Source: Pseudomonas sp. B28(2017) | GTDB taxonomy: Bacteria; Pseudomonadota; Gammaproteobacteria; Pseudomonadales; Pseudomonadaceae | Direction of reading: 5' to 3' | Length of the DNA stretch: 64,000 nucleotides | Assembly (NCBI RefSeq): GCF_002113025.1 | Contig: NZ_NEJH01000001.1 | Location: 186,001-250,000 of the forward strand | In this document: positions 12,478 to 61,945 of the stretch, piece after piece | Numbering within the stretch: position 1 is the first letter of the stretch | Layout of the letters: each line of letters opens with the position of its first letter | Made by a program: the position numbers and the translations under genes | Notes under the pieces: generated by a model | What the model was told of the DNA's origin: nothing | What the model saw: the letters and a program-made list of their open reading frames with translations, nothing else | The model's database searches: none

Positions 12478-12503
12478 GTTTTCTACAGGCTCCTACACAA
12501 AAG

Positions 12504-12527
12504 GGTGACCTCATGGTCACCTTTTTT
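12504..12527 (+). terminator. Terminator of the DUF1302-DUF1329 operon
   Basis: Perfect 7-bp stem GGTGACC/GGTCACC with loop TCAT, followed by six T residues, 26 bp after the DUF1329 stop. Confidence 0.9.
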
Positions 12528-12545
12528 ATAGGGGGCGATCAGTGT

Positions 12546-12563
12546 GTTGAATACTTCTTCAAC
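12546..12563. promoter_or_regulatory. Inverted repeat upstream of the LuxR regulator
   Basis: GTTGAA-N6-TTCAAC, a perfect 6-bp inverted repeat lying between the terminator and the start of the MalT-like regulator gene, in its presumed promoter. It may be an operator; the protein that binds is unknown. Confidence 0.4.
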
Positions 12564-12618
12564 AAGCGCTCGGGAGGGGGCTAGGGTGGCGCCAGAATTA
12601 TAAAAAAGGCGCCCCACA

Positions 12619-41735: not shown

Positions 41736-42502
41736 CTTGCCGAGCGCAGTTCAGAGGCCGGGTAAAAAGACCGTGATGCATGGCAGTCGAGGGTGCGACA
41801 CATGTGCGACATGTTGTCACAGAGTCAGTGTCGCAGGGCGTTCAAGGAGGCCGGATTGGTGCATGGAAACGTAACGAAATTGGGCTGTTTTTCAGGCTTC
41901 CGGTTTTTTCCGTTCCCAACACGAGCAGGCAGTTTTAACACGGTCTGGCGAATGGCCAGAGCCCCCGTTATATCGGGCCTAGGGCAAGGTCAAGGGCAGT
42001 GAAGAGGGACCCGATACTGTCTGAACTGTGGGCGGAAGACCTACTAATTTTGGTGTTTTTGTTGAGAATTAATTTCGATAAGATGCGCCACTTTTGCGAA
42101 AACGGTTAATGATTGTTGCCGCTTCGGATAAAAATTATTTCGGGATGAGACATGGTTTATGAAACGTTACATATCTACAATCGCCCGCACTGAATTCCCG
42201 GCACTGCTCAAATCTTAACCAGGCGTGAGCAGAAACAGGGTGTCGAGAAGTCTGGTGGCTTCATGCGATGCCCAGGTGTCGGAGTCTCCAACTACCCGCA
42301 CCAAATGGAATTGGTCTGTAAAAAGGCCTTTGACCACGAATTCGAATAAGAACTCACTGCAGGCCCAGGATTTGTCGAAACGCGTCTGACGCACGACGGG
42401 CATGCCCTTATTCAATCCAAGAAAAATGCCAACCCTTGGCAGGGTGAAGTGTTGGCGATCAAAACCCAACTGCATGGCGCAAGCTGCTTTAGAGGTCGTG
42501 AG
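41736..42502. other. Long gap upstream of cyoA, no clear gene
   Basis: About 770 bp without a convincing plus-strand gene; it holds the cyo promoter region. AT-rich stretches lie at about 42050-42180. A minus-strand ORF of 86 codons (42215-42475) has some codon bias and no recognisable domain; it might be a small gene, but I cannot support it. No operator was identified with confidence. Confidence 0.4.
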
Positions 42503-43444
42503 ATGATTAAAAACAGGTACCCCAGACTACTAGGCTTATTGCCGCTGATCGGCACGTTGCTGCTGTCAGGCTGCAACATGACCTTGCTCAATCCCAAGGG
42601 CCAGGTTGGTCTGGACGAGCGAAACCTGATCATCACCGCAACGCTGCTGATGCTGTTGGTCGTGGTTCCGGTCATCGTCATGACCTTCCTGTTCGCCTGG
42701 AAATACCGCGCGTCCAACACCAACGCCACCTACACCCCGAAATGGAACCACTCCACCAAGATCGAGATCGCGGTGTGGGCTGTTCCAGTGCTGATCATCA
42801 TTGCCCTGGGTTACGTCACCTACAAGTCGACCCACGCCCTGGACCCGTACAAGCCGCTGGAATCCGACGTCAAGCCTGTGACCATCGAAGTGGTCGCGCT
42901 GGACTGGAAGTGGCTGTTCATCTACCCGGAACAAGGCATCGCCACGGTCAACAAGATCGTGTTCCCGGCGCACACGCCGGTCAACTTCCGCATTACCTCT
43001 GACGCTGTGATGAACTCGTTCTTCATCCCTGCACTGGGCGGCCAGATCTACGCGATGGCGGGCATGCAGACCAAGCTGCACCTGATCGCCAACGAGAACG
43101 CTGAAATGGACGGTATCTCCGCCAACTACAGCGGCGCTGGTTTCACCGGCATGAAATTCAAAGCGATCGCAACTTCTCAGGAAGATTTCGACGCCTGGGT
43201 CAGCGAAGTCAAGAAGTCGCCTAAACAGCTTGAACAAGCTGAATACGCAGCCCTTGCCAAGCAGAGCCAGAACAACCCAGTCGAACTCTACTCCTCGGTG
43301 ACGCCGAACCTGTTCCAGACCATCGTCGACAAGTACGAAGGCATGAAACCGGGTCCGAAGCTGCACCACGAGAAGAAAGAGAAAGAGAAAGAAGTGGCCG
43401 CTACGGACATGAACTCGCATTCAGCTGCCGGGGCAGAGGAGTAA
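42503..43444 (+). CDS. cyoA: Cytochrome bo3 ubiquinol oxidase subunit II
   Basis: 313 aa from the ATG at 42503, which has AGAGG upstream; the in-frame ATG at 42449 is outside the family-like region. A lipoprotein signal with lipobox LLSGC (Cys24) is followed by two membrane helices and a cupredoxin-like periplasmic domain ([23 protein letters not shown]), without copper A ligands, as in quinol oxidases. First gene of cyoABCDE. Confidence 0.97.
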
Positions 43445-43447
43445 ACG

Positions 43448-45478
43448 ATGTTTGGTAAATTAAGTTGGGAAGCGATCCCGTTCCACGAGCCGATTGTCAT
43501 GGTGACTATCTCCATGATCGCGCTCGGTGGTCTGGCGTTGTTCGCTGCAATCACCTACTTCAAGAAGTGGACCTACCTGTGGACCGAATGGCTGACGTCG
43601 GTCGACCACAAGAAAATCGGCGTGATGTACATCATCGTCGCCATGGTCATGCTGCTGCGCGGCTTTGCCGACGCCATCATGATGCGTACCCAGTTGGCCA
43701 TGGCCACCGAGGGTTCGCCTGGCTACCTGCCACCTGAACACTATGACCAGATCTTCACCGCCCACGGTGTGATCATGATCATCTTCATGGCGATGCCATT
43801 CTTCACCGGCCTGATGAACCTTGCAGTGCCGCTGCAGATCGGCGCGCGTGACGTTGCCTTCCCGTTCCTGAACTCCCTGAGCTTCTGGCTGCTGGTTTCC
43901 GGCGTGGTGCTGATCAACCTGTCCCTGGGCGTCGGCGAATTCGCCAAGACCGGCTGGGTTGCCTATCCGCCGCTGTCGGGCCTGCAGTACAGCCCGGGCG
44001 TGGGGATGGATTACTACATCTGGGCGCTACAGCTATCGGGTCTGGGGACAACGTTGACGGGGGTCAACTTCCTGGCCACCGTGCTGAAAATGCGTACCCC
44101 TGGCATGAAACTGATGGACATGCCGATCTTCACCTGGACCTGCACCTGGGCCAACGTCCTGATCGTGGCTTCGTTCCCGATCCTGACCGCTACCCTGGCG
44201 CTGCTGACGCTTGACCGTTACATGGATTTCCACATTTTCACCAATGAACTTGGTGGCAATCCGATGATGTACGTCAACCTGTTCTGGGCTTGGGGTCACC
44301 CTGAGGTTTACATCCTGATCCTGCCGGCGTTCGGTATCTTCTCCGAAGTCGTTTCGACTTTCTCGGGCAAGAAACTGTTCGGCCACCACTCGATGATCTA
44401 CGCATCGGGCGCGATCTCGATCCTGGGCTTCATGGTTTGGCTGCACCACTTCTTCACCATGGGTTCGGGTGCCAGCGTCAACGCCTTCTTCGGTCTGGCG
44501 ACGATGCTGATTTCCATCCCGACGGGTGTGAAACTGTTCAACTGGCTGTTCACCATCTACCAGGGCCGTCTGCGCTTCACCAGCCAGGTGATGTGGACCC
44601 TGGGCTTCATGGTGACCTTCGCCATCGGCGGCATGACCGGCGTACTGCTGGCCATTCCGGGTGCCGACTTCGTTCTGCACAACAGCCTGTTCGTGATCGC
44701 GCACTTCCACAACGTGATCATCGGCGGTGCGGTATTCGGTTACATCGCCGGTTTCGGCTTCTACTTCCCTAAAGCGTTCGGCTTCAAGCTGCACGAAGGT
44801 TGGGGCAAGGCAGCGTTCTGGTTCTGGATCAGCGGTTTCTTCGTCGCGTTCATGCCGCTCTATGCACTGGGCTTCATGGGCATGACCCGTCGTCTGAACG
44901 CCACCACCAACCCTGAGTGGGTACCGTACCTGTACGTGGCCATGTTCGGTGCGATCCTGATCGCCTTCGGTATCGCTTGCCAGCTGATCCAGCTGTACGT
45001 CAGCGTGCGTGACCGCAACAAGCCGGAAAACATGTGCGAACACGGCGACCCGTGGAATGCACACACCCTGGAATGGTCGACCTCGTCGCCACCTCCGTTC
45101 TACAACTTCGCCGTGCTGCCGAAAGCCGACGTTGTCGACCCGTTCACCGAAGCCAAGGAAAACGGTACCGCGTACAAGGCTCCGGCCAAGTACGAACCGA
45201 TCCACATGCCAAACAACACCGCCACCGGTGTGGTGATGGGCGCGCTGTTGACCGTGTTCGGTTTCGCCATGATCTGGCACATCTGGTGGCTGGCGATCGC
45301 CAGCCTGGCCGGCACCGTGATCTATTTCGCGATTCACGCGGCCCGTGATGATCAAGGCTACTACGTGCCGGTCGACGTGATCGAGCGCATCGAAGCCGAG
45401 CAGCACAAGCGTCTGGTCGCGGCAGGGAAAATCCCGGCCACTGCCACCCGTGTTGAAACCTCGTTGGAACAGGCTTAA
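43448..45478 (+). CDS. cyoB: Cytochrome bo3 ubiquinol oxidase subunit I
   Basis: 676 aa, full length. The haem-copper signature is present: low-spin haem ligand region ([17 protein letters not shown]), the CuB ligand segment [26 protein letters not shown] and the two-His segment [10 protein letters not shown]. It has about 15 membrane helices and pumps protons while reducing O2. A 457-codon antisense reading of this gene (44033-45406) is only a codon-bias artefact. Confidence 0.98.
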
Positions 45479-49358: not shown

Positions 49359-50777
49359 TTACTTACGTTGTGTGTCGAGCAACCGGAAAAACCGCTCGCG
49401 CACCTGCAAGCTATCGCTGTGTGCCACGTTGAAGCGCAGGAACTGACTGGCATTCGGGGCTTTGCTCAGCAACGTGCCCGGCGCCAGTACCATATTGTTT
49501 TCCAGCCCTTGTCGAGCCAGCGTCTCGGCGTGCAAGCCATCCGGCAACCGCGCCCAGATAAACACCCCTTCTCCCGGCAATGAAGACAATGAACACCCGG
49601 CCTCCGCCAGCCAACCCGCCACACGGCTATTGGATTCATACAACCGATCCACCGTGCGCCGCGCATGTTTGGCGTAGCTGCCATCGTTGAGCATGGTGCA
49701 GGTGATCTGTTCCGCCAGTTCCGAGGTCACGCCGCCGCAGGCCATTTTCAGGGCGACCATGCGTGCCGCCAGTTGCGGCGACAGCACGGTGTAACTGACC
49801 CGGCTGTTGGCGGTCAGTGTCTTGGAGAAGCCGGAGACATAACTCACGTTGTCCAGCCCGCTGGCCGCCAGGCGCGGGGTGCGGCGTTGCTGGATGTCGC
49901 AATACAGATCGTCTTCGACAATGTGGAAACCGTAGCGGTGGCTCAACTCCACCAAGCGGTAGACCTGGGCCGGGCTGAACGAGTGGCCGGTGGGGTTATG
50001 CAGTGTGCTGTTGGTCATGTACAGCACGGGTTTGTGGGCGATCAGCAGTTGCTCGAAAGCCTCGAGATCCATGCCGTCGCAATCCCGGGCGATGGTGATG
50101 ACCCTGGCCCCGTGCAGTGCCAGATTGGCATGCATGTTGAAGTAGCAAGGGTCGTCGAGCAGCACGGTGTCGCCGGGTTTGACCAGCAGGCGCATCAGCA
50201 GGTCGATGGCCTGCATGGTGTTGGCGGTGGTGATGATCTGGTCCACCGGCGCCTCGATGCCGAAGGTCGCCAGTTTGACCCGCAAGGCCTGGCGCAACGG
50301 CAAGTAACCGCCGGCCACACCGTACTCGCCCATGCGCAACGACGTCGCTCGCAGGGTGCTGCGCACGGCTTTCTGCAATTCTTCGGCGGGTAGCCAGGAA
50401 GTCGGCAGAAAACCGCAGCCGGGGCGCAGCGCGCCGTTGTCCAGCAGCAATGCGCGCCGTACTACGCTCAGGGTGTCCTGGGGTTGCAGGTCCGGGCCGG
50501 TGCCGCTTTGCAGCGCGGCGCTGGAACGATGCACGTAATGCCCCGAACCCTGGCGTGACACCACCAGCCCCTTGGCCCGCAAGCGGTCCAGTGCATCGAC
50601 CACCGTGGACTTGCCCACGTTCATCAAGTCGGAGAGTTCGCGAATCGGCGGCAGCTTGGCGCCGTGGGGCAGTCCACCGGTACTGATCGCCTGGGTCAGT
50701 TGATCGACGATCTGCTGCACCAGCGGCATGCCGGGCTGGAATTCAATGGCGGCAATGACTGCACGTTGAACCTGCAT
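49359..50777 (-). CDS. MocR-type regulator (GntR HTH plus aminotransferase-like domain)
   Basis: 472 aa. Residues 12-78 are a GntR winged HTH (LVQQIVDQLTQAISTGGLPHGAKLPPIREL). The remainder is a class I aminotransferase fold with the PLP lysine in YVSGFSKTLTANSRVSY. MocR proteins bind PLP or amino compounds and sit next to the genes they control. It diverges from the MFS exporter over 148 bp that carry two palindromes, one touching its own start codon. It probably controls the exporter and the biosynthetic genes that follow. Confidence 0.92.
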   Translation of the reverse strand: MQVQRAVIAAIEFQPGMPLVQQIVDQLTQAISTGGLPHGAKLPPIRELSDLMNVGKSTVVDALDRLRAKGLVVSRQGSGHYVHRSSAALQSGTGPDLQPQDTLSVVRRALLLDNGALRPGCGFLPTSWLPAEELQKAVRSTLRATSLRMGEYGVAGGYLPLRQALRVKLATFGIEAPVDQIITTANTMQAIDLLMRLLVKPGDTVLLDDPCYFNMHANLALHGARVITIARDCDGMDLEAFEQLLIAHKPVLYMTNSTLHNPTGHSFSPAQVYRLVELSHRYGFHIVEDDLYCDIQQRRTPRLAASGLDNVSYVSGFSKTLTANSRVSYTVLSPQLAARMVALKMACGGVTSELAEQITCTMLNDGSYAKHARRTVDRLYESNSRVAGWLAEAGCSLSSLPGEGVFIWARLPDGLHAETLARQGLENNMVLAPGTLLSKAPNASQFLRFNVAHSDSLQVRERFFRLLDTQRK

Positions 50778-50825
50778 TTTACTGGTCTCTGCGGCAGTAA
50801 AGTTCGTTGGATTCTATACGAACTT
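50778..50825. promoter_or_regulatory. Two adjoining operator-like palindromes
   Basis: TTTACTG-N10-CAGTAAA (50778-50801) and AAGTTCGT-N10-ACGAACTT (50800-50825). Both are perfect inverted repeats with the same 10-bp spacing, centred 23 bp apart. They occupy the MocR/MFS shared promoter, the first immediately before the MocR start codon. The arrangement suggests repression or autoregulation by the MocR protein. Confidence 0.7.
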
Positions 50826-50925: not shown

Positions 50926-52026
50926 ATGGGTGTCGAAACAACGGTCGCGGTGGCTAAACCGGTCATTAACCTGCGCTTATTCACGATCCGGATCATCACT
51001 GCTGTCTCGCTGTTCGCGGTGCTGGGCAAGGCCAACGTCTGGCTCGACACTGCCACCAACAGCATCCTGGCCCTTGGATATCGCGCCTTGTTGCTGCTGT
51101 TGCCCCTGACTTTACTGGTGCTTGGCCGCCGCTCCCTGAGCGTCACGCTGCTGTGTGCCGGCCTTGGCCTGGTGTTGCTGGCGCTGACCAGCAATCAAGG
51201 CATGGTGATGTTTGCTGCCGCCCTGTTTGCCTACGGCATTGCCATAGCCGGGTACCTGATCAAGAGCGAAGCGGCCCAGACCAGGGAAGGCGCAGCCTAT
51301 AACCGCGTGGCCATGAACATGGGCAGCCTGGTGGCGGGTTTGATCCTGTTGTCGCCGCTTCTCACGCCTACGATGTTTTTCCTCGGTGCGGCGGCGTTCG
51401 TGTTGCTGTGCCTGCCGATCGCCCTCGGCGCGACCTTCACCACCGAACCGGTGGTAGCCCGCCCGGCCAGTCAGGCCGGCAGCAACTGGGGCAACAAACT
51501 GCCCTGGGTGATTGCCGGGATCATCATGGGCATCAAGCTGTTCGGGGTGTTCTCGATCCTGCCACAGGCGATCCTGCTCAAGACCGGCGAGCTGCCGGCC
51601 TGGTACGGCTTGATGCTGATCCTCAACAGCGCGGTGGTGGTGTTCGCCCAGGTGCCCGTGATGAAACTGATCGAACGCACCGGGCGCTTCAAGGTCGTGG
51701 CGGTGATCGGGATCATCGTCGGCGGCTTTGCCGTGCTGTCTTCGCCAGCTGCGTTCCACGTCGAAACCCTCGCCGGGGCGCTGATCTGGGTGGCGCTGCT
51801 GTCGATCGCCGAATGCGCCTTCAGCTACCTCGATTATTTCTCGGTCAAGCAAAACAACATGTTCGTCAAGGAAGTGTCCCTGGGTGTGGGGGCCGGGCTG
51901 ACCGTGTTGATCATGCGAGTGGTGCCGGTGCCGTACAACGCGCTGGTCCTCGCCGCCATCGGCGCCGGCGGGATCCTGGCCTGGTACTGGCTCAACCGTA
52001 AATCCAATGCGTCGCTGCATGACTGA
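50926..52026 (+). CDS. MFS-type exporter of the biosynthetic cluster
   Basis: 366 aa from the ATG at 50926, which has GAGGT upstream; the longer form from 50857 begins with an unlikely Arg/Cys-rich stretch. It has about 11-12 hydrophobic segments and MFS-like loops (GYLIKSEAAQTREGAAYNRVAMNMGSL). It is a probable exporter of the compound made by the following genes, since it lies between the MocR regulator and the ATP-grasp gene and is in the same direction. Confidence 0.82.
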   Translation: MGVETTVAVAKPVINLRLFTIRIITAVSLFAVLGKANVWLDTATNSILALGYRALLLLLPLTLLVLGRRSLSVTLLCAGLGLVLLALTSNQGMVMFAAALFAYGIAIAGYLIKSEAAQTREGAAYNRVAMNMGSLVAGLILLSPLLTPTMFFLGAAAFVLLCLPIALGATFTTEPVVARPASQAGSNWGNKLPWVIAGIIMGIKLFGVFSILPQAILLKTGELPAWYGLMLILNSAVVVFAQVPVMKLIERTGRFKVVAVIGIIVGGFAVLSSPAAFHVETLAGALIWVALLSIAECAFSYLDYFSVKQNNMFVKEVSLGVGAGLTVLIMRVVPVPYNALVLAAIGAGGILAWYWLNRKSNASLHD

Positions 52027-52069
52027 GTCAGCGTCGTTGCGGTTTTCACCTTGCAGGTCGGGGGCATCA

Positions 52070-53350
52070 ATGAATACGACTTCATGCGTAGTAGTGGTGG
52101 GTTACAACGGCAATCGCGTGCACGACATCCAGAAACTGCGCGAGTTGTGCAAGTCGCTCTACAACGCCAGGCTCATCCTGCTGGTCGAGAAGATACAGCC
52201 CCATGACGATCAGGTGGCCGATCACGTCTGCAGCACTTCGCTGGCCGAGAAAGATGTGGCGGCATCCCTTGAACTGGTGGTCGGGTGCCTGAATGCCGAC
52301 AGCTGGAATTTGATCGGCGTTCTGCCGTTCTCCGACCGCGGCGTGCTGCTGGGTGCCGCGCTGGCCAGTCACTTCGGTCTGCCGGGCATTACCACCGGCG
52401 AAGCCCGGGCGGGCCTCGACAAGCAGATCTTTCGCGGGCTCGAAGCGGCGGCCGGTACCTCCCCCGAAGAATACCGGCCGGTGTTTTCCGCGCGAGTCGA
52501 AAGCCTGCCGGAACTGCGCGAACGCGTCGTCGAACTGGGCGGCAAGGCCTTCATCAAACCGGCGTGCGAAGGCGCGAGCCGGGGCTGTCGCGTCATCCAT
52601 CACCCTTCGGAATGCGATGACGCCTGGCTCGCCCTGAAACCTTACCGCGAAGGCGGCATCGTCCTTGAAGAGCTGGTGCAAAACGCCCGCGAATACAGCT
52701 GGGACTGTGTGGCCGGCAGCACCTGGGTGACCGAAAAAACCACCACCGAAGGCGCCTATCGCGCAGAGATCCAGCAAGTCGTACCTGCACCGCTTCCGGC
52801 TGAGGTACAGACACGTTTGATGGCAGCCGGTCGGCATATGTCGTCCTTGGTGTCCCGGGACAATGGCGCCTGGCACAACGAAGTGTTCCTGCGCAGCGAC
52901 AACCTGACCTCCGCCGTGGAAACCAACATGCGCCCCGGCGGCATGCACATCTGGGACCTGGCCAGGCGCGCCTTCGTCAATTTCGATCCGTGGGAACGCT
53001 GGGTGCGCTGGGCGGTGGAAGGCAAGACCGAACAGCACCAGCCAGTGGCTCGCGGCTACTGCGGCATTCGCCTGCTCAGGGCGCCGGCCGGCGGCATCCT
53101 GCGCGCAATGCCTGACATCGAGACCCTGGCCCGCGTACTGCGTATCGACCTGGTGGAAGGGCAGTACGCCAAGCGTATCGGCGACTCGGTCAGCGCGCTG
53201 GTCAAGGACAACTTCTCATTCATCGGCCACATCGTGTTGTTCAACGAACACTACGGGCAACTGAGCAACGACCTGTTGCGTCTGGCCGAGGCGATTGAGT
53301 CACGCACTGAGGTGACTTGCCTGGCACCGGCCACCCGCGCCGTGTGTTGA
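52070..53350 (+). CDS. ATP-grasp ligase
   Basis: 426 aa from the ATG at 52070. The ATP-grasp core lies at residues 115-300: the lysine in KAFIKPACEGASRG (Lys163), the VLEELV hinge (residues 198-203), and the metal site near 271-288 (WHNEVF, then SAVETNMRPGG with Glu284, Asn286 and Arg288). Such enzymes join a carboxylate to an amine via an acyl phosphate, as in carnosine synthase or dapdiamide synthase. It may couple the modified amino acid to a second one. It is 43 bp downstream of the MFS gene. Confidence 0.88.
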   Translation: MNTTSCVVVVGYNGNRVHDIQKLRELCKSLYNARLILLVEKIQPHDDQVADHVCSTSLAEKDVAASLELVVGCLNADSWNLIGVLPFSDRGVLLGAALASHFGLPGITTGEARAGLDKQIFRGLEAAAGTSPEEYRPVFSARVESLPELRERVVELGGKAFIKPACEGASRGCRVIHHPSECDDAWLALKPYREGGIVLEELVQNAREYSWDCVAGSTWVTEKTTTEGAYRAEIQQVVPAPLPAEVQTRLMAAGRHMSSLVSRDNGAWHNEVFLRSDNLTSAVETNMRPGGMHIWDLARRAFVNFDPWERWVRWAVEGKTEQHQPVARGYCGIRLLRAPAGGILRAMPDIETLARVLRIDLVEGQYAKRIGDSVSALVKDNFSFIGHIVLFNEHYGQLSNDLLRLAEAIESRTEVTCLAPATRAVC

Positions 53351-53398
53351 GCCAGCAAGCACCCGTTTTTTGCATTACTGATCAAGAGGGTTCGATCA

Positions 53399-53893
53399 AT
53401 GATCCAGCACATGACCTGCGATGAACGCTTCATCGCCCTGGCCAAAGAGTTTGGTTATGACATCTACGGCGAAAACACCGCAGGCGGGCATTACGCGCCG
53501 TTGATCCGGCATCACGATGAGCTGTACATCAGTGGCCTGGTGCCGCGCATGAACGGCAAAATCCATTACCCCGGCCGTGTCGGACTGGATCTCACCATGG
53601 CCGATGCACAAGCGGCCGCCAGCATCAGTGCGATGCGTGGGCTGGCGTTGATCGTCGATGCCATTGGTTCGCTGGACAAGATCAAGTCATTGATCCGTGT
53701 AACGGTGTATGTGAAGTCCACGGCGGACTTTGTCGATTTGAGTGAAGTGGCCAACGGCGCCTCGGATGTGTTCAGCCATGTGCTGGGCGATGCCGGTAAA
53801 CATACGCGCACCACTGTCGGTGTTTATCAGTTACCCAAGAATGCCGCGATAGAAGTTGACATGATTGCAGCCTTGCGCCCATCGGTTTTATAA
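53399..53893 (+). CDS. RidA-family protein
   Basis: 164 aa, longer than the usual 130 because of about 25 extra N-terminal residues. The RidA fold includes GLVPRMNGKIHYPGRVGLDLTMADAQAAA and a conserved Arg in SLIRVTVYVKS near residue 99. RidA proteins hydrolyse reactive enamines/imines made by PLP enzymes. The cluster also encodes an aminotransferase and a PLP-type aminomutase, so such intermediates are expected here. Confidence 0.88.
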   Translation: MIQHMTCDERFIALAKEFGYDIYGENTAGGHYAPLIRHHDELYISGLVPRMNGKIHYPGRVGLDLTMADAQAAASISAMRGLALIVDAIGSLDKIKSLIRVTVYVKSTADFVDLSEVANGASDVFSHVLGDAGKHTRTTVGVYQLPKNAAIEVDMIAALRPSVL

Positions 53894-53894
53894 A

Positions 53895-53959
53895 TTATTT
53901 CCAGACTTTACAGCGCTGAATCGTTAACTTAAGGTTTGGCGCTAAAGTATTGGAAATAA
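53895..53959. repeat. Long imperfect inverted repeat before the cupin gene
   Basis: TTATTTCCA (53895-53903) and TGGAAATAA (53951-53959) are perfect arms. The inner pairs ACTTTA/TAAAGT and AGCGC/GCGCT extend the stem. There is no U tract, so it does not look like a simple terminator. It fills the gap between the RidA and cupin genes and may be a regulatory stem or an operator. Confidence 0.55.
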
Positions 53960-53976
53960 GAAGAAGGGACGTGCGA

Positions 53977-54462
53977 ATGGATAACTTTCAAGGTGCTTTT
54001 TTTTCATATAAGGACTTTCGTCAAAGCCTGCACCATCGAGCGCCAAGTCCCAAGGTATGGAAAGGCGCCGAACTAGCGGGTATGCGTCAGGCCCTTGAAG
54101 CCAGCGACATTGATATTGTCGCTTTGGCTCACGACAAAAGCATTGAAGGCTGTGAAGTGACGCCAGGCATGGCGATCGCCATGCAATGGCTGAATCCCGG
54201 TGTGACGCTCAACGGTCATGCCCATTCCTGGTGGCATCTGTTCGTTATCCAGTGCGGCAGCGGCGTGTTGACCCTCGGCGATGCCGATGAGGTCGAGGTC
54301 AGCAGCGGCGACGTGCTGCTGGTGCCGGCCTGGACCCGACATGGGTTCGTCAACACCAGCAAATACGAGCCTCTGGCGATGCTGAACATGAGCAACATGC
54401 CACAAATGGCACTGCTCTCGAACTTTGCCGACAGCCATGGCCTGATCACCACCCAGCCGTAA
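53977..54462 (+). CDS. Cupin-domain protein
   Basis: 161 aa from the ATG at 53977, which follows AAGAAGGG; an earlier in-frame TTG at 53950 is less likely. A single cupin barrel: residues 72-110 with LNGHAHSWWHLFVIQCGSGVLTLGD, then VSSGDVLLVPAWTRHGF. The metal ligands H, H and the later H are plausible. No enzyme class can be assigned. A strong terminator follows 20 bp after the stop. Confidence 0.85.
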   Translation: MDNFQGAFFSYKDFRQSLHHRAPSPKVWKGAELAGMRQALEASDIDIVALAHDKSIEGCEVTPGMAIAMQWLNPGVTLNGHAHSWWHLFVIQCGSGVLTLGDADEVEVSSGDVLLVPAWTRHGFVNTSKYEPLAMLNMSNMPQMALLSNFADSHGLITTQP

Positions 54463-54482
54463 TTTCCCAGCGCATCAACCAA

Positions 54483-54512
54483 GGGAGCCAACCATCGTTG
54501 GCTCCCTTTTTT
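54483..54512 (+). terminator. Terminator inside the biosynthetic cluster
   Basis: A perfect 10-bp stem GGGAGCCAAC/GTTGGCTCCC with loop CATC and six T residues, after the cupin gene. It splits the cluster into two transcription units. Confidence 0.9.
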
Positions 54513-54598
54513 GTTTTTCAAACCTGCCTCTGGTGCCGCCTTTTGCAGCGGTATTACCGGGGCCCTGGCTGTGCTTTTGCCAGCGGAAAACAACTTTT

Positions 54599-54636
54599 CT
54601 GTATCGATTGAAACAGGCAAATTCTGTATCTATTCA
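54599..54636. promoter_or_regulatory. Direct repeats upstream of the GST gene
   Basis: CTGTATCGATTGA (54599-54611) and CTGTATCTATTCA (54624-54636) are direct repeats with a 25-bp period, upstream of the second transcription unit. MocR-type regulators such as GabR bind direct repeats, so these are candidate sites for one of the two flanking MocR proteins. Confidence 0.55.
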
Positions 54637-54706
54637 GCCCCCAGTCAACTAACTACGATCACTTCCAATGCACGTTAATCCCTGCAGTCAGTGAATGGAG
54701 TGTTCT

Positions 54707-55351
54707 ATGGAAAACAGGAAGCTAAAACTGTATGTCGGCGCCGACTATGTCAGCGCTTTTGCGATGTCGGCTTTTGTGGCGCTCAAGGAAAAGCAACTTT
54801 CATTTGAATTTGTTGCGGTAGATCTGAAAGCACGCGAAAACTATATGGCGAGTTATCGCGATATTTCGCTGACATGCAAAATCCCAACGCTGGTTCACGA
54901 AAGTTTTGCCTTGTCGGAATCATCGACGATTGCCGAATACCTCGATGAGCTCTTCCCAGGGCACAAAAAACTCTATCCGCACGACATCCAGCAGCGCGCC
55001 CGTGCCCGTCAATTGCAGGCCTGGTTACGCAGTGACTTGCTGGTGGTGCGCAAGGAGCGCCCGTTTGACCTGGTCTACTTCGGTAAAAAAAATGTGCCCC
55101 TGAGCGCCGATGCCCAAGCCGCCGTCGAGCGCCTGTTCTTCGTCGCCGACCGTTTGCTGGAAGAGGGCGCCGAGCATCTGTTCGGTGACTGGAGCATTGC
55201 CGACACCGACCTGGCAATCATGCTCAACCGACTGGTTGCCAACGGCGACCCAGTGCCGGCACGGCTCGCGGCCTATGTGCGTCGTCAGTGGGATCGCGAC
55301 AGCGTCCGGGCGTGGATGGACATAGAGCGCAAAGCGCCGGCCATCGCGTAA
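54707..55351 (+). CDS. Glutathione S-transferase-like protein
   Basis: 214 aa from the ATG at 54707, which has GGAG upstream. Residues 4-80 are a thioredoxin-like GST domain with CKIPTLVHESFALSESSTIAEYL (cis-Pro and the SES glutathione contact). Helical second domain follows. In a biosynthetic cluster a GST could transfer or remove glutathione or protect the cell from a reactive product. First gene of the second transcription unit. Confidence 0.88.
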   Translation: MENRKLKLYVGADYVSAFAMSAFVALKEKQLSFEFVAVDLKARENYMASYRDISLTCKIPTLVHESFALSESSTIAEYLDELFPGHKKLYPHDIQQRARARQLQAWLRSDLLVVRKERPFDLVYFGKKNVPLSADAQAAVERLFFVADRLLEEGAEHLFGDWSIADTDLAIMLNRLVANGDPVPARLAAYVRRQWDRDSVRAWMDIERKAPAIA

Positions 55352-55383
55352 CAACACTCAGGGCAATCACCAGGAGCGCGGCC

Positions 55384-56724
55384 ATGCAAGGACTGTCGGA
55401 GCACGAACGCTACAAACCCTATAACTCACGCACCATCCGCGACTCACCTTACTGGCACAAACTGACGCCGGCGTTGCAGGAGGCCATGACCGTGGTAGCC
55501 CGGGTCATGCCTTTTCGCACCAACGAATACGTGCTGGGCACACTGATCGACTGGAACAACATTCCCGACGATCCGGTTTTCCGCATGACCTTTCCCCACA
55601 AGGACATGTTGCTGCCGGAGGAATATGCCTCGCTCAAACAACTGATCGAACAGGATGACAGCGTGGCGATCAAGCGTCGGATCGAGGCGATCTGGTTGCG
55701 CATGAATCCTCATCCGGCCGGGCAGTTGACCCACAACGGTGTCACCCTCAACGGCAAAGTCCTGCCGGGCATCCAGCACAAGTACCGCGAGACCGTGCTG
55801 TTTTTCCCCGGTGCCGGTCAGACCTGTCATGCGTACTGCACCTTCTGTTTCCGCTGGGCGCAGTTCATTGGCGAAGAAGAACTCAAGTTCAACGCCCGTG
55901 AGTCCCAGGAACTGCTGAGTTACCTGAGGGTGCACACCGAAGTGACCGACGTGCTGATTACCGGCGGCGATCCGATGATCATGAACACCCGCTCGCTGAC
56001 CGGTTACATCGAACCGCTGTTGCAATTGCCACACCTGAAGAACATTCGCATCGGCACCAAGTCCGTGGCGTACTGGCCGCAACGTTTTGTCAGTGACAAG
56101 GATGCGCCTGAGCTGCTGGAACTGTTCCGGCGAATCGTTGCGGCGGGGAAAAACCTGTCGATCATGGGGCACTACAACCACCCGGTGGAGCTTCGCCCGG
56201 CTATTGCCCGTCAGGCCATCGAGCGCATTCGCTCAACGGGCGCGACGGTGCGCATGCAAGCGCCGGTGATCCGCCACATCAACGAAAACCCTGTCGACTG
56301 GGCAGCGCTTTGGACCGAAGGCGTGCGGCTCGGGGCCGTGCCTTACTACATGTTCGTCGAGCGTGACACCGGCCCCAGCCACTACTTCGCAATGCCGCTG
56401 GCCCGGGCCTTCGAGATCTTCCAGGCGGCGTACCGCACGGTCTCCGGGCTGGCGCGTACGGTGCGCGGGCCATCCATGAGCACCTTCTACGGCAAGGTGT
56501 TGATCAATGGCATCGAGACCGTCGCCGGGGAAAAGGTCTTCGTCTTGCAGTTCCTCCAGGCACGCAATCCGCAATGGGTGTTGCGCACGTTCCATGCGCG
56601 CTTCGATCCGCACGTGACCTGGTTCGACGACTTGCAACCGGCATTCGGCGAGCGTTCGTTCTTCTTTCAAACCGAGCTCAGCGCCATGCCGGAATTGATA
56701 CCCGTGTTGCTGGAAACAGCGTAG
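55384..56724 (+). CDS. KamA-like radical SAM aminomutase family protein
   Basis: 446 aa from the ATG at 55384. The radical SAM motif CHAYCTFC places its cysteines at 148, 152 and 155. The following GGDPMIMNTRSLTGYIEPLL, NIRIGTKSVAYWPQRF and HYNHPVELRP segments match KamA-type enzymes. A candidate PLP lysine lies in STFYGKVLINGIE. The substrate-contact pattern (VDAPGG in lysine 2,3-aminomutase) is replaced by VRGPSMS, so the substrate is probably not lysine. It may shift an amino group from C2 to C3 of an amino acid. It has a 32-bp gap to the GST gene. Confidence 0.88.
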   Translation: MQGLSEHERYKPYNSRTIRDSPYWHKLTPALQEAMTVVARVMPFRTNEYVLGTLIDWNNIPDDPVFRMTFPHKDMLLPEEYASLKQLIEQDDSVAIKRRIEAIWLRMNPHPAGQLTHNGVTLNGKVLPGIQHKYRETVLFFPGAGQTCHAYCTFCFRWAQFIGEEELKFNARESQELLSYLRVHTEVTDVLITGGDPMIMNTRSLTGYIEPLLQLPHLKNIRIGTKSVAYWPQRFVSDKDAPELLELFRRIVAAGKNLSIMGHYNHPVELRPAIARQAIERIRSTGATVRMQAPVIRHINENPVDWAALWTEGVRLGAVPYYMFVERDTGPSHYFAMPLARAFEIFQAAYRTVSGLARTVRGPSMSTFYGKVLINGIETVAGEKVFVLQFLQARNPQWVLRTFHARFDPHVTWFDDLQPAFGERSFFFQTELSAMPELIPVLLETA

Positions 56725-56755
56725 GAAAATTCATGAACAATGGGGAGATATGGAT

Positions 56756-57628
56756 ATGAGCAGTATCCCGTTTGATCAGCGCGAGGGTGTTATCTGGCTC
56801 GACGGCGAGTTCGTCGAGTGGTCCCGGGCGCAGTTGCATGTGCTGACCCATGGCCTGCATTACGCGAGCACCGTGTATGAAGGCGAGCGGGTCTACAACG
56901 GCAAGGTCTTCAAGCTGCGCGAGCACACTGAGCGCTTGTATCGCTCGGCACAATGGATGGACTTTGCCATCCCCTATGAGCTGGCGGAACTGGAAGCGGC
57001 GAGCCATGAACTGCTGCAACGCAACAAGGTCGTCGACGGTTATCTGCGCCCGGTGGCCTGGCGCGGCAGTGAGATGATTTCCACCTCGGCGCGTTTCAAC
57101 CGTGTCCACGTGGCTATCGCGTGCTGGCAATGGCCGAGCTATTTCGACCCGACGGCGCGCATGGCCGGCATCCGCTTGAAAACCGCGAGCTGGCGCCGCC
57201 CGCCGCCGAGCAGCAGCCCGTTCCAGGCCAAGGCATCCGGGCATTACCAGATCGCCACGCTGAGCAAGCACGACGCCGAGAACACGGGTTACCACGATGC
57301 GCTGATGCTCGATTGGCGTGGCCACGTTGCCGAAGCCACCAGCGCCAATGTGTTCTTTGTCAAAGGCCGGACGCTGCACACCCCGCTGCCGGATTGTTTC
57401 CTCAACGGCATCACCCGGCAGACCGTGATCGAGTTGGCCAAAGCGCTGGACTATCAGGTCGTCGAGCGCACGATTTTGCCGGCGGAACTCGGCGACTTCG
57501 ACGAGTGTTTTCTTACCGGCACCGCCGCCGAAATCACTCCGGTGCAGAGCATCGATGAACAGCACTACCGACCTGGCGATGCCTGCCGCGACTTCATTGC
57601 CGCCTACACCTCAACCGTAAACGCCTGA
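56756..57628 (+). CDS. Class IV aminotransferase (branched-chain/D-amino acid type)
   Basis: 290 aa from the ATG at 56756, which is 8 bp after GGGGAG; the ATG two codons earlier is too close to that site. The PLP lysine is Lys159 in QAKASGHY, and Glu193, which binds the pyridine N, is in HVAEATSANVF. The fold-type IV pattern THGLHYASTVYEGER is at the N-terminus. It could transaminate the amino acid before or after mutase action. Gap of 31 bp to the KamA-like gene. Confidence 0.92.
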   Translation: MSSIPFDQREGVIWLDGEFVEWSRAQLHVLTHGLHYASTVYEGERVYNGKVFKLREHTERLYRSAQWMDFAIPYELAELEAASHELLQRNKVVDGYLRPVAWRGSEMISTSARFNRVHVAIACWQWPSYFDPTARMAGIRLKTASWRRPPPSSSPFQAKASGHYQIATLSKHDAENTGYHDALMLDWRGHVAEATSANVFFVKGRTLHTPLPDCFLNGITRQTVIELAKALDYQVVERTILPAELGDFDECFLTGTAAEITPVQSIDEQHYRPGDACRDFIAAYTSTVNA

Positions 57629-57650
57629 TCACCCGCCAGGAAATTTCACC

Positions 57651-58409
57651 ATGTCAGATCAAGGGATTGTTGCGTCTCAACCTTACATTTCGCTCGGCCA
57701 TCGTCATGAAGAACTGTCGACGGCGGGCTGGACGGTACTGACCCCCGACGAATTCGCCGATGATGTCGTAGGTACCTTGCAGGAGTTCGGTCGGATCATT
57801 CCGCAGTTCAACGGCCAGATGGCCTTTGCCATTACCCGCAAGCCGGGTTACGAAGACTTGCCGTATTCCCAGAGCATGAACGGCATCGGCCCGCACACGG
57901 AGGCGCCGGTATACGGGCCTCCGCCGCGCTATCTGGCGTTGCATTGCCATAAACAGGCCACATGCGGTGGCGGGCACACCGGATTGGTGGATGGTTATGA
58001 ATTTCTCAAGTCCCTGGAGCGCAGCGAACCGCAACTGCGTGAGTGGCTGGATGACACGCCGGTAGAATTCGTCGCCACCGCCAAACCGGGCGAACCGGGG
58101 CAACGACGGGTCAGGGAGTACATCCTCACGCCGACAGAAGACGGGGATATTTTCCGCTTCAGCTACAACCAGTTTCACTACGGCGACGTGAACCCGTCCA
58201 AGGAAGCCCTGCAGCAATCGCTGGTCGCCAACAGCACCTTGCCGCTGGCCAGGTTTGCCGTGCTCGGCGAAGCGTACTTCGTCGAGCACAACGTTCCGGT
58301 GCTGATTCCCGACGGATGCCTGCTGGTTTGGGATAACTGGCGGATGATTCACGCCCGCAGTCGTTACACTGACCCGGCGCGCAACCTGACCCGCTATTGG
58401 CTGGCCTGA
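57651..58409 (+). CDS. Fe(II)/2-oxoglutarate dioxygenase (TauD/TfdA type)
   Basis: 252 aa. Iron ligands: His82 and Glu84 in GPHTEAPVY, and His234 in MIHARSRY. The 2-oxoglutarate Arg is probably R244 or R248 in the ARNLTRYW tail. The family hydroxylates, desaturates or ring-closes its substrates; the substrate here is not known. It is 22 bp downstream of the aminotransferase. Confidence 0.9.
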   Translation: MSDQGIVASQPYISLGHRHEELSTAGWTVLTPDEFADDVVGTLQEFGRIIPQFNGQMAFAITRKPGYEDLPYSQSMNGIGPHTEAPVYGPPPRYLALHCHKQATCGGGHTGLVDGYEFLKSLERSEPQLREWLDDTPVEFVATAKPGEPGQRRVREYILTPTEDGDIFRFSYNQFHYGDVNPSKEALQQSLVANSTLPLARFAVLGEAYFVEHNVPVLIPDGCLLVWDNWRMIHARSRYTDPARNLTRYWLA

Positions 58410-58475
58410 TTTTTCCGTCGCCCTACATTCTTTTGGCGTACCCCTGGCGGGTACGCGCCTTACAGGTATCGCGTC

Positions 58476-59435
58476 ATGCAAACAGCAATCGAGATCTCCC
58501 AGGTCGATCATCAACTGATCGTGCGGCTCAACCAGGCCTGGACCAGGCGCGCCACGGTGTGTTCGCCGGACAGGGGCCAAGTGGAAGAGGTGTTTGACCC
58601 CGCGCGCCCGGATTACCCGGAGTGCATGGTGCCGTTCTTCCATCATCCGAAATTCCAGGCCTTGAGCGACGAGCTCAAAAGCAGCGTGGTGACCTGGGGC
58701 TGGATCGGCTACAACCTGCGCACCGTCATTGCCGAAGAACACGTGGTCAACCCGGCGCTGAGCGTCATCGCCAATCAGTATCTGGGCAAGGATGACTGGC
58801 ATTTTCGCGAGGCCATGCAACAAACCCTGATCGACGAGCACTACCACACGCTGATGCACCTGCGCGCCATCGAGCGGACCAAACTGGATCGGGCGCTGGA
58901 CCAGGATCTGGATCTGCCACCGTCCGTCACTTACCTGCGCATGAAAGCCCTGCATGCAGAGCTGCCAGAGCAATGGCAGCGGGATCTGGCGGCGATCACT
59001 TTTGCGGTGGTGGCCGAGATCAGCGTCAACGCCTATCTGGACCTGCTGGCAGACGACCGGACCATTCAGCCGCAGAACCGCCGGGTGGCCGAACTGCACA
59101 ACCGCGACGAATATGCCCACAGCAAGGTGCTGGCCGAAGTGGCGAAGGTCATGTACGCCAACATGCAGCCCACTCAGCGGGAATTTTTCGCACGCAACCT
59201 GTCGGTGGCGCTGAGTGCGTTTATCGCTCAGGACTACTCCATGTGGGAGGCGATTCTGACGCAGCTCGGGGTCGAGGATGCGGCGCTGATCATTGCCGAC
59301 ACCCGTGAGAGCAACAAGAGCGCGACCATCATGCGTGACTACAGTGGCCTGCATAAATTGGCCCATGACCTGGGTATCAGCGACCAGATCGATTTCGATT
59401 TTCGCCCGACCCTCAAAACCACGGCGGCCGCCTGA
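58476..59435 (+). CDS. AurF-like diiron N-oxygenase
   Basis: 319 aa. All seven diiron ligands of AurF are found: E87 or E88 (IAEEH), E121 and H124 (DEHYH), E181 (VAEIS), H208, E212 and H215 (LHNRDEYAH). Their spacing (33-34, 3, 57, 27, 4, 3) reproduces that of AurF (35, 3, 57, 27, 4, 3). AurF-type enzymes oxidise an amine to hydroxylamine or nitro; relatives act in nitro, nitroso and azoxy compounds. This is the strongest evidence that the cluster makes an N-oxygenated product. 66 bp after the dioxygenase gene. Confidence 0.92.
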   Translation: MQTAIEISQVDHQLIVRLNQAWTRRATVCSPDRGQVEEVFDPARPDYPECMVPFFHHPKFQALSDELKSSVVTWGWIGYNLRTVIAEEHVVNPALSVIANQYLGKDDWHFREAMQQTLIDEHYHTLMHLRAIERTKLDRALDQDLDLPPSVTYLRMKALHAELPEQWQRDLAAITFAVVAEISVNAYLDLLADDRTIQPQNRRVAELHNRDEYAHSKVLAEVAKVMYANMQPTQREFFARNLSVALSAFIAQDYSMWEAILTQLGVEDAALIIADTRESNKSATIMRDYSGLHKLAHDLGISDQIDFDFRPTLKTTAAA

Positions 59436-59449
59436 ACCCGGAGGTGCTT

Positions 59450-60250
59450 ATGTCCACACCTGTGTACGAAGTGTTCGCCATCCGTGTCGGTGCCAATGCC
59501 CAGCGCACCGCCAGGGAGAATTTTCTGTACGACGCCTGCTGCGGTGATCCGAATGCGCCGATGCCTCTGGACTACTACTTCTGGGTCATCCGCAACGAGC
59601 AGCAGGTGATCGTGGTCGACACCTGTTTTCAACCTGCCACGGCGCACCGGCGCAATCGCCAGATGTATCGCCTGCCGGAAGAATCCCTACGGCAACTGGA
59701 CATCGATCCGGCGCAGGTCGAGCACCTGATCCTGACCCATTTGCATTGGGATCATGCCGGCAACCTCGGGCTGTTCCCGAAGGCGACCGTGCATTTGCAG
59801 GACGCGGAGCTGCGATTCTGCACCGGGCCGAAAATGGTCCATCGCACGGTGAATAAAACCTACGAGGTCGAGGACGTGATGTCGGCGCTGCCGCCGTTGT
59901 TCGAAGGGCGGATGCGTTTGCACAGTGGTGTTGTCGAGGTCGTGCCTGGCGTGACGCTGCACCCGGTGGGCGGGCATACGCCCGGCAGTCAGGTCGTGCG
60001 GGTGAACACTGAACGCGGCTGGATCGTACTGGCCTCGGATGCCGCGCATTTGTGGGTCAACATTCGTCAGCGCAGCCCGTTTCCGATTCTCGATGACCTG
60101 GCGCAAACCCTTGAAGCGTTCACCGAGATCGATCGCCTGGCCGATGGCGAAGACCACGTCATCCCCGGCCACGACCCGCTGATCGCCGAGAGTTTTCCGC
60201 ACTGGAATGACGACCCGCATATCATTTGCCTGCACCAGCCACCCATCTGA
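59450..60250 (+). CDS. Metallo-beta-lactamase-fold hydrolase
   Basis: 266 aa from the ATG at 59450, which has GGAGG 5 bp upstream; an in-frame GTG two codons earlier lies within that site. The zinc motif is intact: LTHLHWDHAGN (residues about 95-105), GGHTPGSQ with the later His, Asp in LASDAAH, and IPGHD. It resembles the AttM/AiiA lactonase branch. It may open a lactone or lactam or hydrolyse a thioester in the pathway, or give resistance. 14 bp after the AurF-like gene and probably last in the operon. Confidence 0.9.
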   Translation: MSTPVYEVFAIRVGANAQRTARENFLYDACCGDPNAPMPLDYYFWVIRNEQQVIVVDTCFQPATAHRRNRQMYRLPEESLRQLDIDPAQVEHLILTHLHWDHAGNLGLFPKATVHLQDAELRFCTGPKMVHRTVNKTYEVEDVMSALPPLFEGRMRLHSGVVEVVPGVTLHPVGGHTPGSQVVRVNTERGWIVLASDAAHLWVNIRQRSPFPILDDLAQTLEAFTEIDRLADGEDHVIPGHDPLIAESFPHWNDDPHIICLHQPPI

Positions 60251-60364: not shown

Positions 60365-61795
60365 CTAACCCTGGTTTTTCAGGATGCGCCCCAAGGTCTG
60401 CAGGGCCTCATCAATCCGCGGCGAATACGGCGCGCCACAGCCAATGCGCACAAAGTGATCGAAACGCCTGGCATTGGAAAAGATATCCCCAGGGGAAATC
60501 TGGATGCCGACTTTCAGCGCTTCGTGAAAAAAAGCCATCGAAGAATACCGACGAGGCAATTCCACCCATAGCAGCGTGCCGCCTTGCGGATGGGTCACGC
60601 TGGTGCCGATGGGAAAATGGCGGGTGATCGCCGCGCTCATTTGCTCGCGTTGTACGGTCAGGGTTTTCCTCAGCCGCCGCAGGTAACGTTCGTAGGACGG
60701 TGTGCGCATGAATTCGCTGACGGCCAGTTGCGATAGCGCCTCGCATCCCCGTGACTGCGTATGCTTGAGCATCTCCACACGGTCGTGCCACTTGCCGGCG
60801 CTGATCCAGCCCAGGCGCATGCCCGGTGCCAGGGTTTTGTTCAGCGAGGCGCAGTAGATCACGTTGTCGCTGCGGTCCCACTGTTTGAGCGTGGACAACG
60901 GCTGCTCGGTGTCCACCAGGTCGCCGTAGGTGTCGTCCTCGATCAGCACGGTGTTGTGCTCGGCACACAGTTTCACCAGCCGTGCCTTGTTGGCGGCGGG
61001 CATGATGCTGCCCAGCGGGTTTTGCAGGTTGGGAATGACGATCAATGCCTTGACCCGTTCGGGGCCTTGCAGCAGCAGTTGCAGGGCCGCCAGATTGAGC
61101 CCGGTGTGGGCCGAGGCCGGGACTTCCAGCACCCGCAGGCTCAGGCTTTCGAGAATTTGCAGCAGGCCGTAGAACGTCGGCGACTCCACGGCCACGGTGT
61201 CACCGGGGCGGGTGACCGCACGCAAGGCCAGGTTGATCGCTTCGGTGGCGCCGTTGGTGATCACGATCCGCTCGGGGGCCAGGTGGGTCTTGCTGGCCAG
61301 TGCCCGCCGGGCCAGGATGCTGCGCAATGCGCTGTTGCCGCAGGTCGGGCCCGCAGTGCCGAGCAGGCGGGCGTCGTAGCGCAGCGACTTGATCATGTTG
61401 TCTTGCAAGGCCTTGAGCGGATAAAGCTCCGGCGCGCAGTAGGCGCTGGCGAAATTGACCTTGATCGTCGCGCGCTGACTGGCTTTGAGCACCGTTGAGA
61501 CCTGTTCATGAATGCCGACATAGACGCTGGTATCCAGCGCAGGCGCCATGGCAATCGGGGCAGGCTTGGGCGCGGTGTCGGGCTGGCGAATGTAGTTGCC
61601 GGAGCGTGGCCGGGCTTCCAGCACACCGTAGTCTTCCAGTTCCCGGCACACCTGCACGGCGGTCGACAGGCTGACGGCGTGTTTTTCCATCATCAACCGG
61701 ATCGAGGGGAAGCGTTCACCGGTTTTCAAGGTGCCGCTGCGGATGGCGTCCAGGTAGTGGTTGGCTAGCTGGCGATACAAGGGGGTCGTGTTCAT
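60365..61795 (-). CDS. Second MocR-type regulator
   Basis: 476 aa from the ATG at 61795; a longer in-frame form to 61876 begins with a weak stretch. The N-terminal GntR HTH (LYRQLANHYLDAIRSGTLKTGERFPSIRLMMEKHAVSLSTAVQVCREL) is followed by an aminotransferase fold with the PLP lysine in YCASLNKTLAPGMRLGW. It is convergent with the biosynthetic genes and closes the cluster on the right. Two MocR proteins flanking one cluster could mean two different signals, or that one of them controls an unrelated gene. Confidence 0.9.
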   Translation of the reverse strand: MNTTPLYRQLANHYLDAIRSGTLKTGERFPSIRLMMEKHAVSLSTAVQVCRELEDYGVLEARPRSGNYIRQPDTAPKPAPIAMAPALDTSVYVGIHEQVSTVLKASQRATIKVNFASAYCAPELYPLKALQDNMIKSLRYDARLLGTAGPTCGNSALRSILARRALASKTHLAPERIVITNGATEAINLALRAVTRPGDTVAVESPTFYGLLQILESLSLRVLEVPASAHTGLNLAALQLLLQGPERVKALIVIPNLQNPLGSIMPAANKARLVKLCAEHNTVLIEDDTYGDLVDTEQPLSTLKQWDRSDNVIYCASLNKTLAPGMRLGWISAGKWHDRVEMLKHTQSRGCEALSQLAVSEFMRTPSYERYLRRLRKTLTVQREQMSAAITRHFPIGTSVTHPQGGTLLWVELPRRYSSMAFFHEALKVGIQISPGDIFSNARRFDHFVRIGCGAPYSPRIDEALQTLGRILKNQG

Positions 61796-61945
61796 GATGA
61801 CCTCGGCAGTTGCACCACTGAGATCTGGGCTGGAAAGTGAGTTGACGCTCCCCGCAGGCGGACCCGTGGTGCTCATGGGTGAAGGGAAGTGTTGATCTGC
61901 GTCGATACTGGAAGAGTAATCGCGGATTTGCCCGAATCACGGGCA

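Follow-up and report, generated by a model that had tools for sequence, protein, structure and literature searches.

Ten genes at positions 50926-60250 of the window, the 64,000-nucleotide stretch of Pseudomonas sp. B28(2017) analyzed here (contig NZ_NEJH01000001.1, positions 186,001 to 250,000, part of a 5.93-Mb genome), form a genuine cluster of the biosynthesis type, uncommon and coherent, and no characterized counterpart of it was found. We consider it slightly better than an even bet that the ten genes turn glutamate into an N-oxygenated beta-amino acid, which in Pseudomonas is amide-linked to a second amino acid by an ATP-grasp ligase and probably exported. The evidence comprises the co-inheritance of the genes, conserved residues of an AurF-type diiron N-oxygenase and a KamA-family aminomutase, and the predicted fold of the ligase. 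All ten open reading frames (ORFs) run in one direction on the plus strand, and none encodes a nonribosomal peptide synthetase (NRPS) or polyketide synthase (PKS), both as proposed in an earlier sequence-only reading. Its general view of a biosynthesis-type cluster is upheld; its definition of the core and its KamA assignment are corrected here.

Conservation of the gene set and its core

Loci were collected in a non-exhaustive scan (one genome per species; AurF alignment with two short peptide patterns), yielding 62 loci, among them named Pseudomonas loci with an AurF 86-96% identical to that of the window. All ten proteins were detected by tblastn in 55 of the 62, so the prospect raised earlier, that these genes are never co-conserved, does not apply. 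The remaining loci were a 4-kb contig end (L008, incomplete), a Planotetraspora locus with a distant AurF at 40% and no other of the ten (L062), an Amantichitinum locus without MFS and RidA orthologues (L055), and four Burkholderiales loci (L057, L058, L059 and L061; Paraburkholderia, Trinickia) without MFS, ATP-grasp or RidA orthologues. Other MFS genes are present in these five non-Pseudomonas core loci (L055 and the four Burkholderiales).

Across the genus, AurF (E <= 1e-60) was present in 39 of 398 genomes and KamA (E <= 1e-100) in 48, namely the 39 AurF carriers at >=80% identity and nine others at 49-65%. Both genes shared one contig in 38 of the 39 genomes, the exception (G253) having AurF at a contig start. 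In the family (148 genomes), the AurF profile had matches at the same threshold in two genomes, each of them from the genus itself; in the phylum (299 genomes), the window genome alone matched, and the same holds for ATP-grasp (E <= 1e-60) in the class (369 genomes). A protein of Azotobacter chroococcum is 56% identical to AurF. Median ratios of nonsynonymous to synonymous substitution rates (dN/dS) against the window were 0.046-0.159 per gene, with single comparisons up to 0.50 (cupin); gapped alignments to L001-L060 were dropped, which left 37-60 comparisons for each gene. All ten genes are intact and under purifying selection, and they are co-inherited more than expected by chance.

Six genes, encoding a glutathione transferase (GST), KamA, a class IV aminotransferase, a 2-oxoglutarate oxygenase, AurF and a metallo-beta-lactamase-fold hydrolase (MBL), occur together with a cupin in 60 of the 62 loci, Burkholderiales included; the L055 cupin lies on the opposite strand. 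These seven constitute the core, which is common to Burkholderiales and Amantichitinum and sits for the most part in the second of two predicted operons (operon B, below). Searches of whole genomes (E <= 1e-20) detected ATP-grasp in the window genome, in P. gingeri (69%) and in A. ursilacus (53%, the aligned part containing one TGA), but in none of the four Burkholderiales genomes that carry the core. Because of this absence, ATP-grasp is ruled out as a core member and is regarded as an add-on, and the trio of AurF, KamA and ATP-grasp named as the core by the sequence-only reading had to be given up. An eleventh gene, Ldh_2 (PF02615; 330.5 bits for L055), lies between KamA and the aminotransferase in eight of the 60 complete loci: L049-L051 (P. 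gingeri/fuscovaginae), L055 and the four Burkholderiales loci.

Enzymes encoded by the cluster

The AurF-type N-oxygenase (58476..59435; coordinates refer to the plus strand unless stated otherwise) scored 153.5 bits against PF11583 (cut-off 29.6). Its diiron ligands (E87, E121, H124, E181, H208, E212 and H215) are intact and invariant in 20 sequences, in agreement with the assignment made earlier. The only solved structures it matched at E <= 0.001 were AurF itself and 5hyg, which is labeled uncharacterized in the structure listing and which we take to be CmlI. All seven ligands match those given for DnfA, AurF and CmlI in the available part of PMC9478400. R287 aligns with Arg302 of AurF (3chh), a position at which 5hyg has Gln. 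In AurF, R302 contacts the carboxylate of p-aminobenzoate (PABA), and the CmlI substrate is not a free acid. Since R302 is kept as R287, while 5hyg has Gln, this residue favors a carboxylate-bearing amine as the candidate substrate and is silent on whether that amine is aromatic or aliphatic.

In the KamA-family protein (55384..56724), a radical S-adenosylmethionine (SAM)/pyridoxal phosphate (PLP) aminomutase, the radical SAM cysteines C148, C152 and C155 (CxxxCxxC) were kept in 20 of 20 aligned sequences. All 20 also have Arg at R157, the position of R134 in lysine 2,3-aminomutase (LAM), and at R327, which lies in a VERDTG motif and replaces the Asp of LAM D293. LAM D293 binds the side-chain ammonium of lysine and R134 the carboxylate, and clostridial glutamate 2,3-aminomutase has Lys at the D293 position. 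The protein matched KamA-type NCBIfam models but stayed below the cut-off of every one, including TIGR00238 (138.9; cut-off 199.2) and the lysine 2,3-aminomutase model (110.5; cut-off 525.4). With a sub-cut-off score and Arg at the Asp293 position, lysine 2,3-aminomutase is rejected and glutamate becomes the better candidate substrate; the amino-group migration suggested by the sequence-only reading stays plausible, but a lysine aminomutase identity does not fit. R327 and a presumed membership in an IdnL4-type family make glutamate 2,3-aminomutase the predicted activity. One member of the 20-sequence set, a Streptomyces plasmid KamA with the VERDTG motif, has type I PKS genes and genes of the proline iminopeptidase family as neighbors, as in macrolactam clusters, and another of the 20 lies near a type III PKS gene and adenylation genes. 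According to the available part of PMC11284099, disruption of idnL4 showed a role in forming the 3-aminobutyrate of incednine, from L-Glu via beta-glutamate, and IdnL4 served as the glutamate-2,3-aminomutase query in PMC10662134. IdnL4 would belong to the same long KamA family, and IdnL4-type relatives, with which the window KamA shares the Arg at the D293 position, are probably glutamate-using.

KamA relatives were also found in seven 20-kb stretches from genomes of the Paraburkholderia locus's family. Six of these (66-69%) lacked the other nine window genes, and the seventh (L124, 51%) contained an ATP-grasp-like ORF. For L123 and L125, a filter on GC content at third codon positions left almost no ORFs, and "stand-alone" here means an absence of tblastn matches only; neighbors of KamA and ATP-grasp relatives were assigned by visual inspection of translations, and these indicated no substrate. 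Four of the stretches (L119-L122, 68-69%) have ferredoxin-like or LysR-like ORFs beside KamA and no other window genes, and their KamA might make beta-glutamate as a solute. A small tree placed the AurF-linked KamAs of the loci, together with P0225 and P0235, apart from L119-L122 with a node support of 0.386 only, and P0127 and P0231, whose contigs have the same lengths as those of the AurF proteins P0060 and P0070, just outside the AurF-linked group, with P0152. In four genomes (G067, G132, G226 and G188), the match to a 55-56% KamA relative spans one in-frame TAA. On plasmid pDK3 of Rhodococcus sp. DK176 (L095, 5026-19994), a KamA is accompanied by a cupin, a SidA-type monooxygenase, a class I tRNA-ligase-like protein, a luciferase-like monooxygenase, two ATP-grasps and an MFS protein, which makes this different cluster a second case of KamA paired with a likely N-oxygenase.

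The ATP-grasp ligase (52070..53350) had no Pfam match at 1e-3 and is a weak match by sequence. Its predicted structure (pLDDT 91.7) had the L-amino-acid ligase 3vot as best PDB fold match (TMq 0.78), followed by a PurD-type enzyme (rank 2), 4wd3 (rank 3) and 3vmm (rank 4); RizA, BacD and YwfE occupied ranks 3-5. The model folds like L-amino-acid ligases, which hold ranks 1, 3, 4 and 5 (TMq 0.72-0.78), and biotin carboxylases and PurK-type enzymes also match because this fold is shared. The LAL_C2 domain (PF18603), carried by some relatives, scored 13.8 (cut-off 29.4). Elsewhere, a 53% relative (L127 in G835, 8900-14400) lies beside two further ATP-grasp-like ORFs, a luciferase-like monooxygenase and ferredoxin-like ORFs, with no AurF match within 20 kb. 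The MFS-like protein (50926..52026), a probable exporter, reached only 7.7 bits against PF07690 (cut-off 33.4, E = 2); its grand average of hydropathy of 1.05 and 14 hydrophobic peaks, some overlapping, fit a polytopic membrane protein. For these two proteins the names given by the sequence-only reading are weaker by sequence, and seven others (RidA, cupin, GST, class IV aminotransferase, 2-oxoglutarate oxygenase, AurF and MBL) scored above their Pfam cut-offs. RidA (53399..53893) matched PF14588 (57.8 bits) and PF01042 (46.1 bits), and the cupin (53977..54462) matched PF07883 (42.7 bits). The GST (54707..55351) passes NF011693 (glutathione transferase PRK15113; 299.4 bits, cut-off 150) and is presumably of the YfcF type. 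The class IV aminotransferase (56750..57628) passes branched-chain aminotransferase (BCAT) models such as PRK07544 (470.5 bits, cut-off 396). In the TauD-family Fe(II)/2-oxoglutarate oxygenase (57651..58409; PF02668, 60.6 bits), the H82-x-E84...H234 triad is invariant in 12 of 12 sequences, as is HxHxDH in 10 of 10 sequences of MBL (59450..60250; PF00753, 66.1 bits), whose nearest structure was 8x78 (annotated glyoxylase), followed by acyl-homoserine lactone lactonases.

Predicted operons and MocR-type regulators

The ten genes are flanked by two MocR-type regulator genes absent from the earlier list, both on the minus strand and both combining GntR (PF00392) and aminotransferase I/II (PF00155) domains. 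The upstream gene (49359..50777) is divergent from, and in Pseudomonas loci adjoins, the MFS-like gene; the downstream one (60365..61876) is represented by relatives at 43-52% in the five core loci from outside Pseudomonas. MocR regulators often bind repeats close to promoters, and a probable operator consisting of the inverted repeats TTTACTG..CAGTAAA and GTTCGT..ACGAAC lies in the spacer that separates the upstream MocR gene from operon A (50778..50823). The former was found in 53 and the latter in 45 of 56 such spacers (15 spacers aligned). Between cupin and GST, an intrinsic terminator with a 12-bp stem and T run (54481..54508; folding z -6.0) is followed by a direct repeat, TCTGTATC x2 (54598..54630), the probable operator of operon B. 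This pair is present in 54 of 56 cupin-GST spacers, always with 25 bp between starts, and no further copy was found on either strand of the window.

The hairpin at 54481 had the longest stem in a general terminator scan of the region, although the number of terminators in that scan (10 found vs 12.5 expected by chance) and in a promoter scan (2 vs 3.8) was not above chance. Under a first, strict rule (loop <=8) a terminator-like hairpin was found in 15 of 56 spacers; after the aligned hairpins were viewed and loop and stem were relaxed, a hairpin with T tract was found in 46 of 56, window included, compared to 84 of 1120 mononucleotide shuffles. Because a terminator and an operator-like repeat separate cupin from GST, the ten genes are split into two predicted operons: operon A (50926-54462; MFS-like protein, ATP-grasp, RidA and cupin) and operon B (54707-60250; GST, KamA, aminotransferase, 2-oxoglutarate oxygenase, AurF and MBL), with presumably one MocR gene for each. 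The single ten-gene cluster of the sequence-only reading thus holds for direction and co-conservation and gives way to two predicted units. Further upstream, the window contains quinol-oxidase-type COX2 and COX1 genes (42449-45478), which we take to be of the cyo type, and a LysE-type translocator gene (48455).

Proposed pathway, alternatives and known systems

In the proposed pathway, KamA would turn L-glutamate into beta-glutamate by shifting its amino group from C2 to C3, and the 2-oxoglutarate oxygenase would hydroxylate the skeleton. Where Ldh_2 is present, it may convert this hydroxyl to a ketone, at which the class IV aminotransferase would install an amine. AurF would then oxidize an amine on this substrate, which bears a carboxylate, and so produce a hydroxylamine or a nitro group, with GST, MBL, cupin and RidA processing or protecting reactive intermediates. 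In Pseudomonas and Amantichitinum only, the ATP-grasp ligase would form an amide bond; the MFS-like protein would export the product, and the MocR regulators may sense an amino compound through PLP. The likely product is a derivative of beta-glutamate that is oxygenated at nitrogen and, in Pseudomonas, carries an amide linkage; here we infer substrates, products and step order alike. In a more specific version, the core would be a new, assembly-line-free route to an N-oxygenated 2,3-diamino acid, leading from beta-glutamate through C2 hydroxylation, oxidation and transamination to 2,3-diaminoglutarate and its N-oxygenation by AurF, perhaps with closure to give an isoxazolidinone or a nitro amino acid. 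The product would be a compact warhead, bare in Burkholderiales and amide-capped in Pseudomonas; we regard this version as speculative and rather unlikely.

Several observations weigh against the glutamate pathway or its common core. The KamA score against the glutamate 2,3-aminomutase model TIGR04368 (97.5 vs 650) is far below the cut-off. Characterized AurF enzymes nearest by structure act on arylamines, and most known AurF substrates belong to that class. KamA is not exclusive to the pathway, since six stretches carry it without the other nine genes. The model of the 2-oxoglutarate oxygenase is poor (pLDDT 53.7). An Ldh_2 step cannot be general because 52 of the 60 complete loci have a gap of <200 bp between KamA and the aminotransferase and lack this gene, and its relatives in the window genome reach only 27-28%. 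The Burkholderiales cupins are only 35-37% alike, GST is placed after the cupin and gene order differs; RidA and ATP-grasp orthologues were not found in these loci by tblastn. The operon B repeat was likewise not found in the four loci when the 400 bp preceding GST and KamA were searched. In addition, IdnL4 activity in vitro was not seen, as reported in the available part of PMC11284099.

An arylamine substrate is the strongest alternative, though an unlikely one: AurF would oxidize an arylamine such as PABA and the cluster would make a nitroaryl conjugate, for which KamA and ATP-grasp would supply and attach the amino-acid partner. This would suit the retained R302 and the two matching structures, 5hyg and AurF; of 11 plasmid AurF relatives, the two inspected (Rhodococcus, 38.7%; B. 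glumae, 34.0%) both lie near pabB-type genes, and HamC oxidized PABA in vitro (PMC5878181, available part). However, no aminodeoxychorismate synthase is encoded among the ten genes, the class IV enzyme passes BCAT and not pabC models, AurF reached 254.6 against the p-aminobenzoate N-oxygenase model NF045603 (cut-off 620), and KamA is present in all 60 complete loci. A little less probable is a catabolic or detoxifying role, in which an amino acid or N-oxygenated compound would be taken up and degraded. Import could fall to the MFS-like protein, and catabolic sets commonly include RidA, GST, MocR regulators and MBL of the lactonase type, but an L-amino-acid-ligase-like ATP-grasp and a 2,3-aminomutase look anabolic, and presence in 39 of 398 genus genomes fits accessory metabolism, though it is compatible with catabolism. 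An NRPS-free diazeniumdiolate or other N-N product resembling fragin, valdiazen or leudiazen seems more doubtful again. The ham cluster has AurF, cupin and aminotransferase genes and, in Pseudomonas, often a GntR gene close by (PMC5878181, available part), and the Rhodococcus KamA has cupin, SidA-type and class I tRNA-ligase-like genes as neighbors; however, the Pfam results for the ten genes show nothing corresponding to HamD (NRPS), HamA (haem-oxygenase-like) or HamE (cyclase). Release of hydroxylamine from glutamine, as in dirammox (dnf), is very improbable. The ten genes encode neither a glutamine amidotransferase (DnfC) nor a ferredoxin-type reductase (DnfB), although dnf also has an AurF-type oxygenase with identical diiron ligands (PMC9478400, available part) and a MocR-like regulator, DnfR (from a title cited in PMC11440038).

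If the glutamate pathway is correct, a radical aminomutase and a diiron N-oxygenase would be paired in a natural-product pathway without NRPS or PKS in an easily grown Pseudomonas, and an AurF-family enzyme would have a probable non-aromatic amino-acid substrate. The split into core and add-on genes defines a minimal enzyme set for testing, and the gene set provides a cluster search rule independent of assembly lines. As the sequence-only reading had stated, no known pathway matched: the ten-gene set was not found described among the matches listed from open-licence PubMed Central (PMC) papers, a weak negative since most subscription papers lie outside this search and two of the listings covered 25 of 1,888 and 15 of 39 matches, so a prior description is possible.

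Among known systems, mgo and pvf clusters share AurF-type oxygenase, cupin and aminotransferase features with the window cluster. Compared to ham, mgo and pvf (fragin, valdiazen, leudiazen), the window cluster lacks NRPS, HamA and HamE and has KamA and ATP-grasp. The cystobactamid cluster unites the N-oxygenase CysR, 2,3-aminomutation and the oxygenase CysJ, but its aminomutase is an NRPS domain thought to be non-radical, CysR acts on PABA and the NRPS is large (PMC7966384, available part). In dnfT1RT2ABCD, the AurF-family DnfA occurs with a MocR-like regulator (PMC9136411, PMC11440038, available parts), but the window set lacks DnfB and DnfC, and the seven dnf genes, as described in the available part of PMC9136411, include no KamA, 2-oxoglutarate oxygenase or ATP-grasp. 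Identity with ham, cystobactamid or dnf is rejected, their defining partners, as far as given in the available parts of PMC5878181, PMC7966384, PMC9136411, PMC11440038 and PMC11160463, being missing among the ten genes. Systems of another make that combine cupin, N-monooxygenase and ATP-grasp are predicted in PMC2922099 (available part). The L-amino-acid ligases BL00235, RizA and BacD/YwfE share the ATP-grasp fold, but the window protein is only 14-16% identical to them. An L057 aminotransferase (PF12897) was compared with the Streptomyces enzyme that neighbors KamA, and close homology was rejected, the best aligned segment reaching 25% over 151 columns (E 5e-4). Lastly, incednine-type starter genes encode the KamA IdnL4, for which conversion of glutamate to beta-glutamate is proposed (PMC11284099, available part), and the decarboxylase IdnL3. 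The likeness is to the VERDTG KamA family beside the Streptomyces type I PKS, the IdnL4 sequence itself not being part of the comparison; unlike these systems, the window cluster has no PKS or neighboring class I/II aminotransferase-like gene, and combines its KamA with AurF, 2-oxoglutarate oxygenase, GST and MBL.

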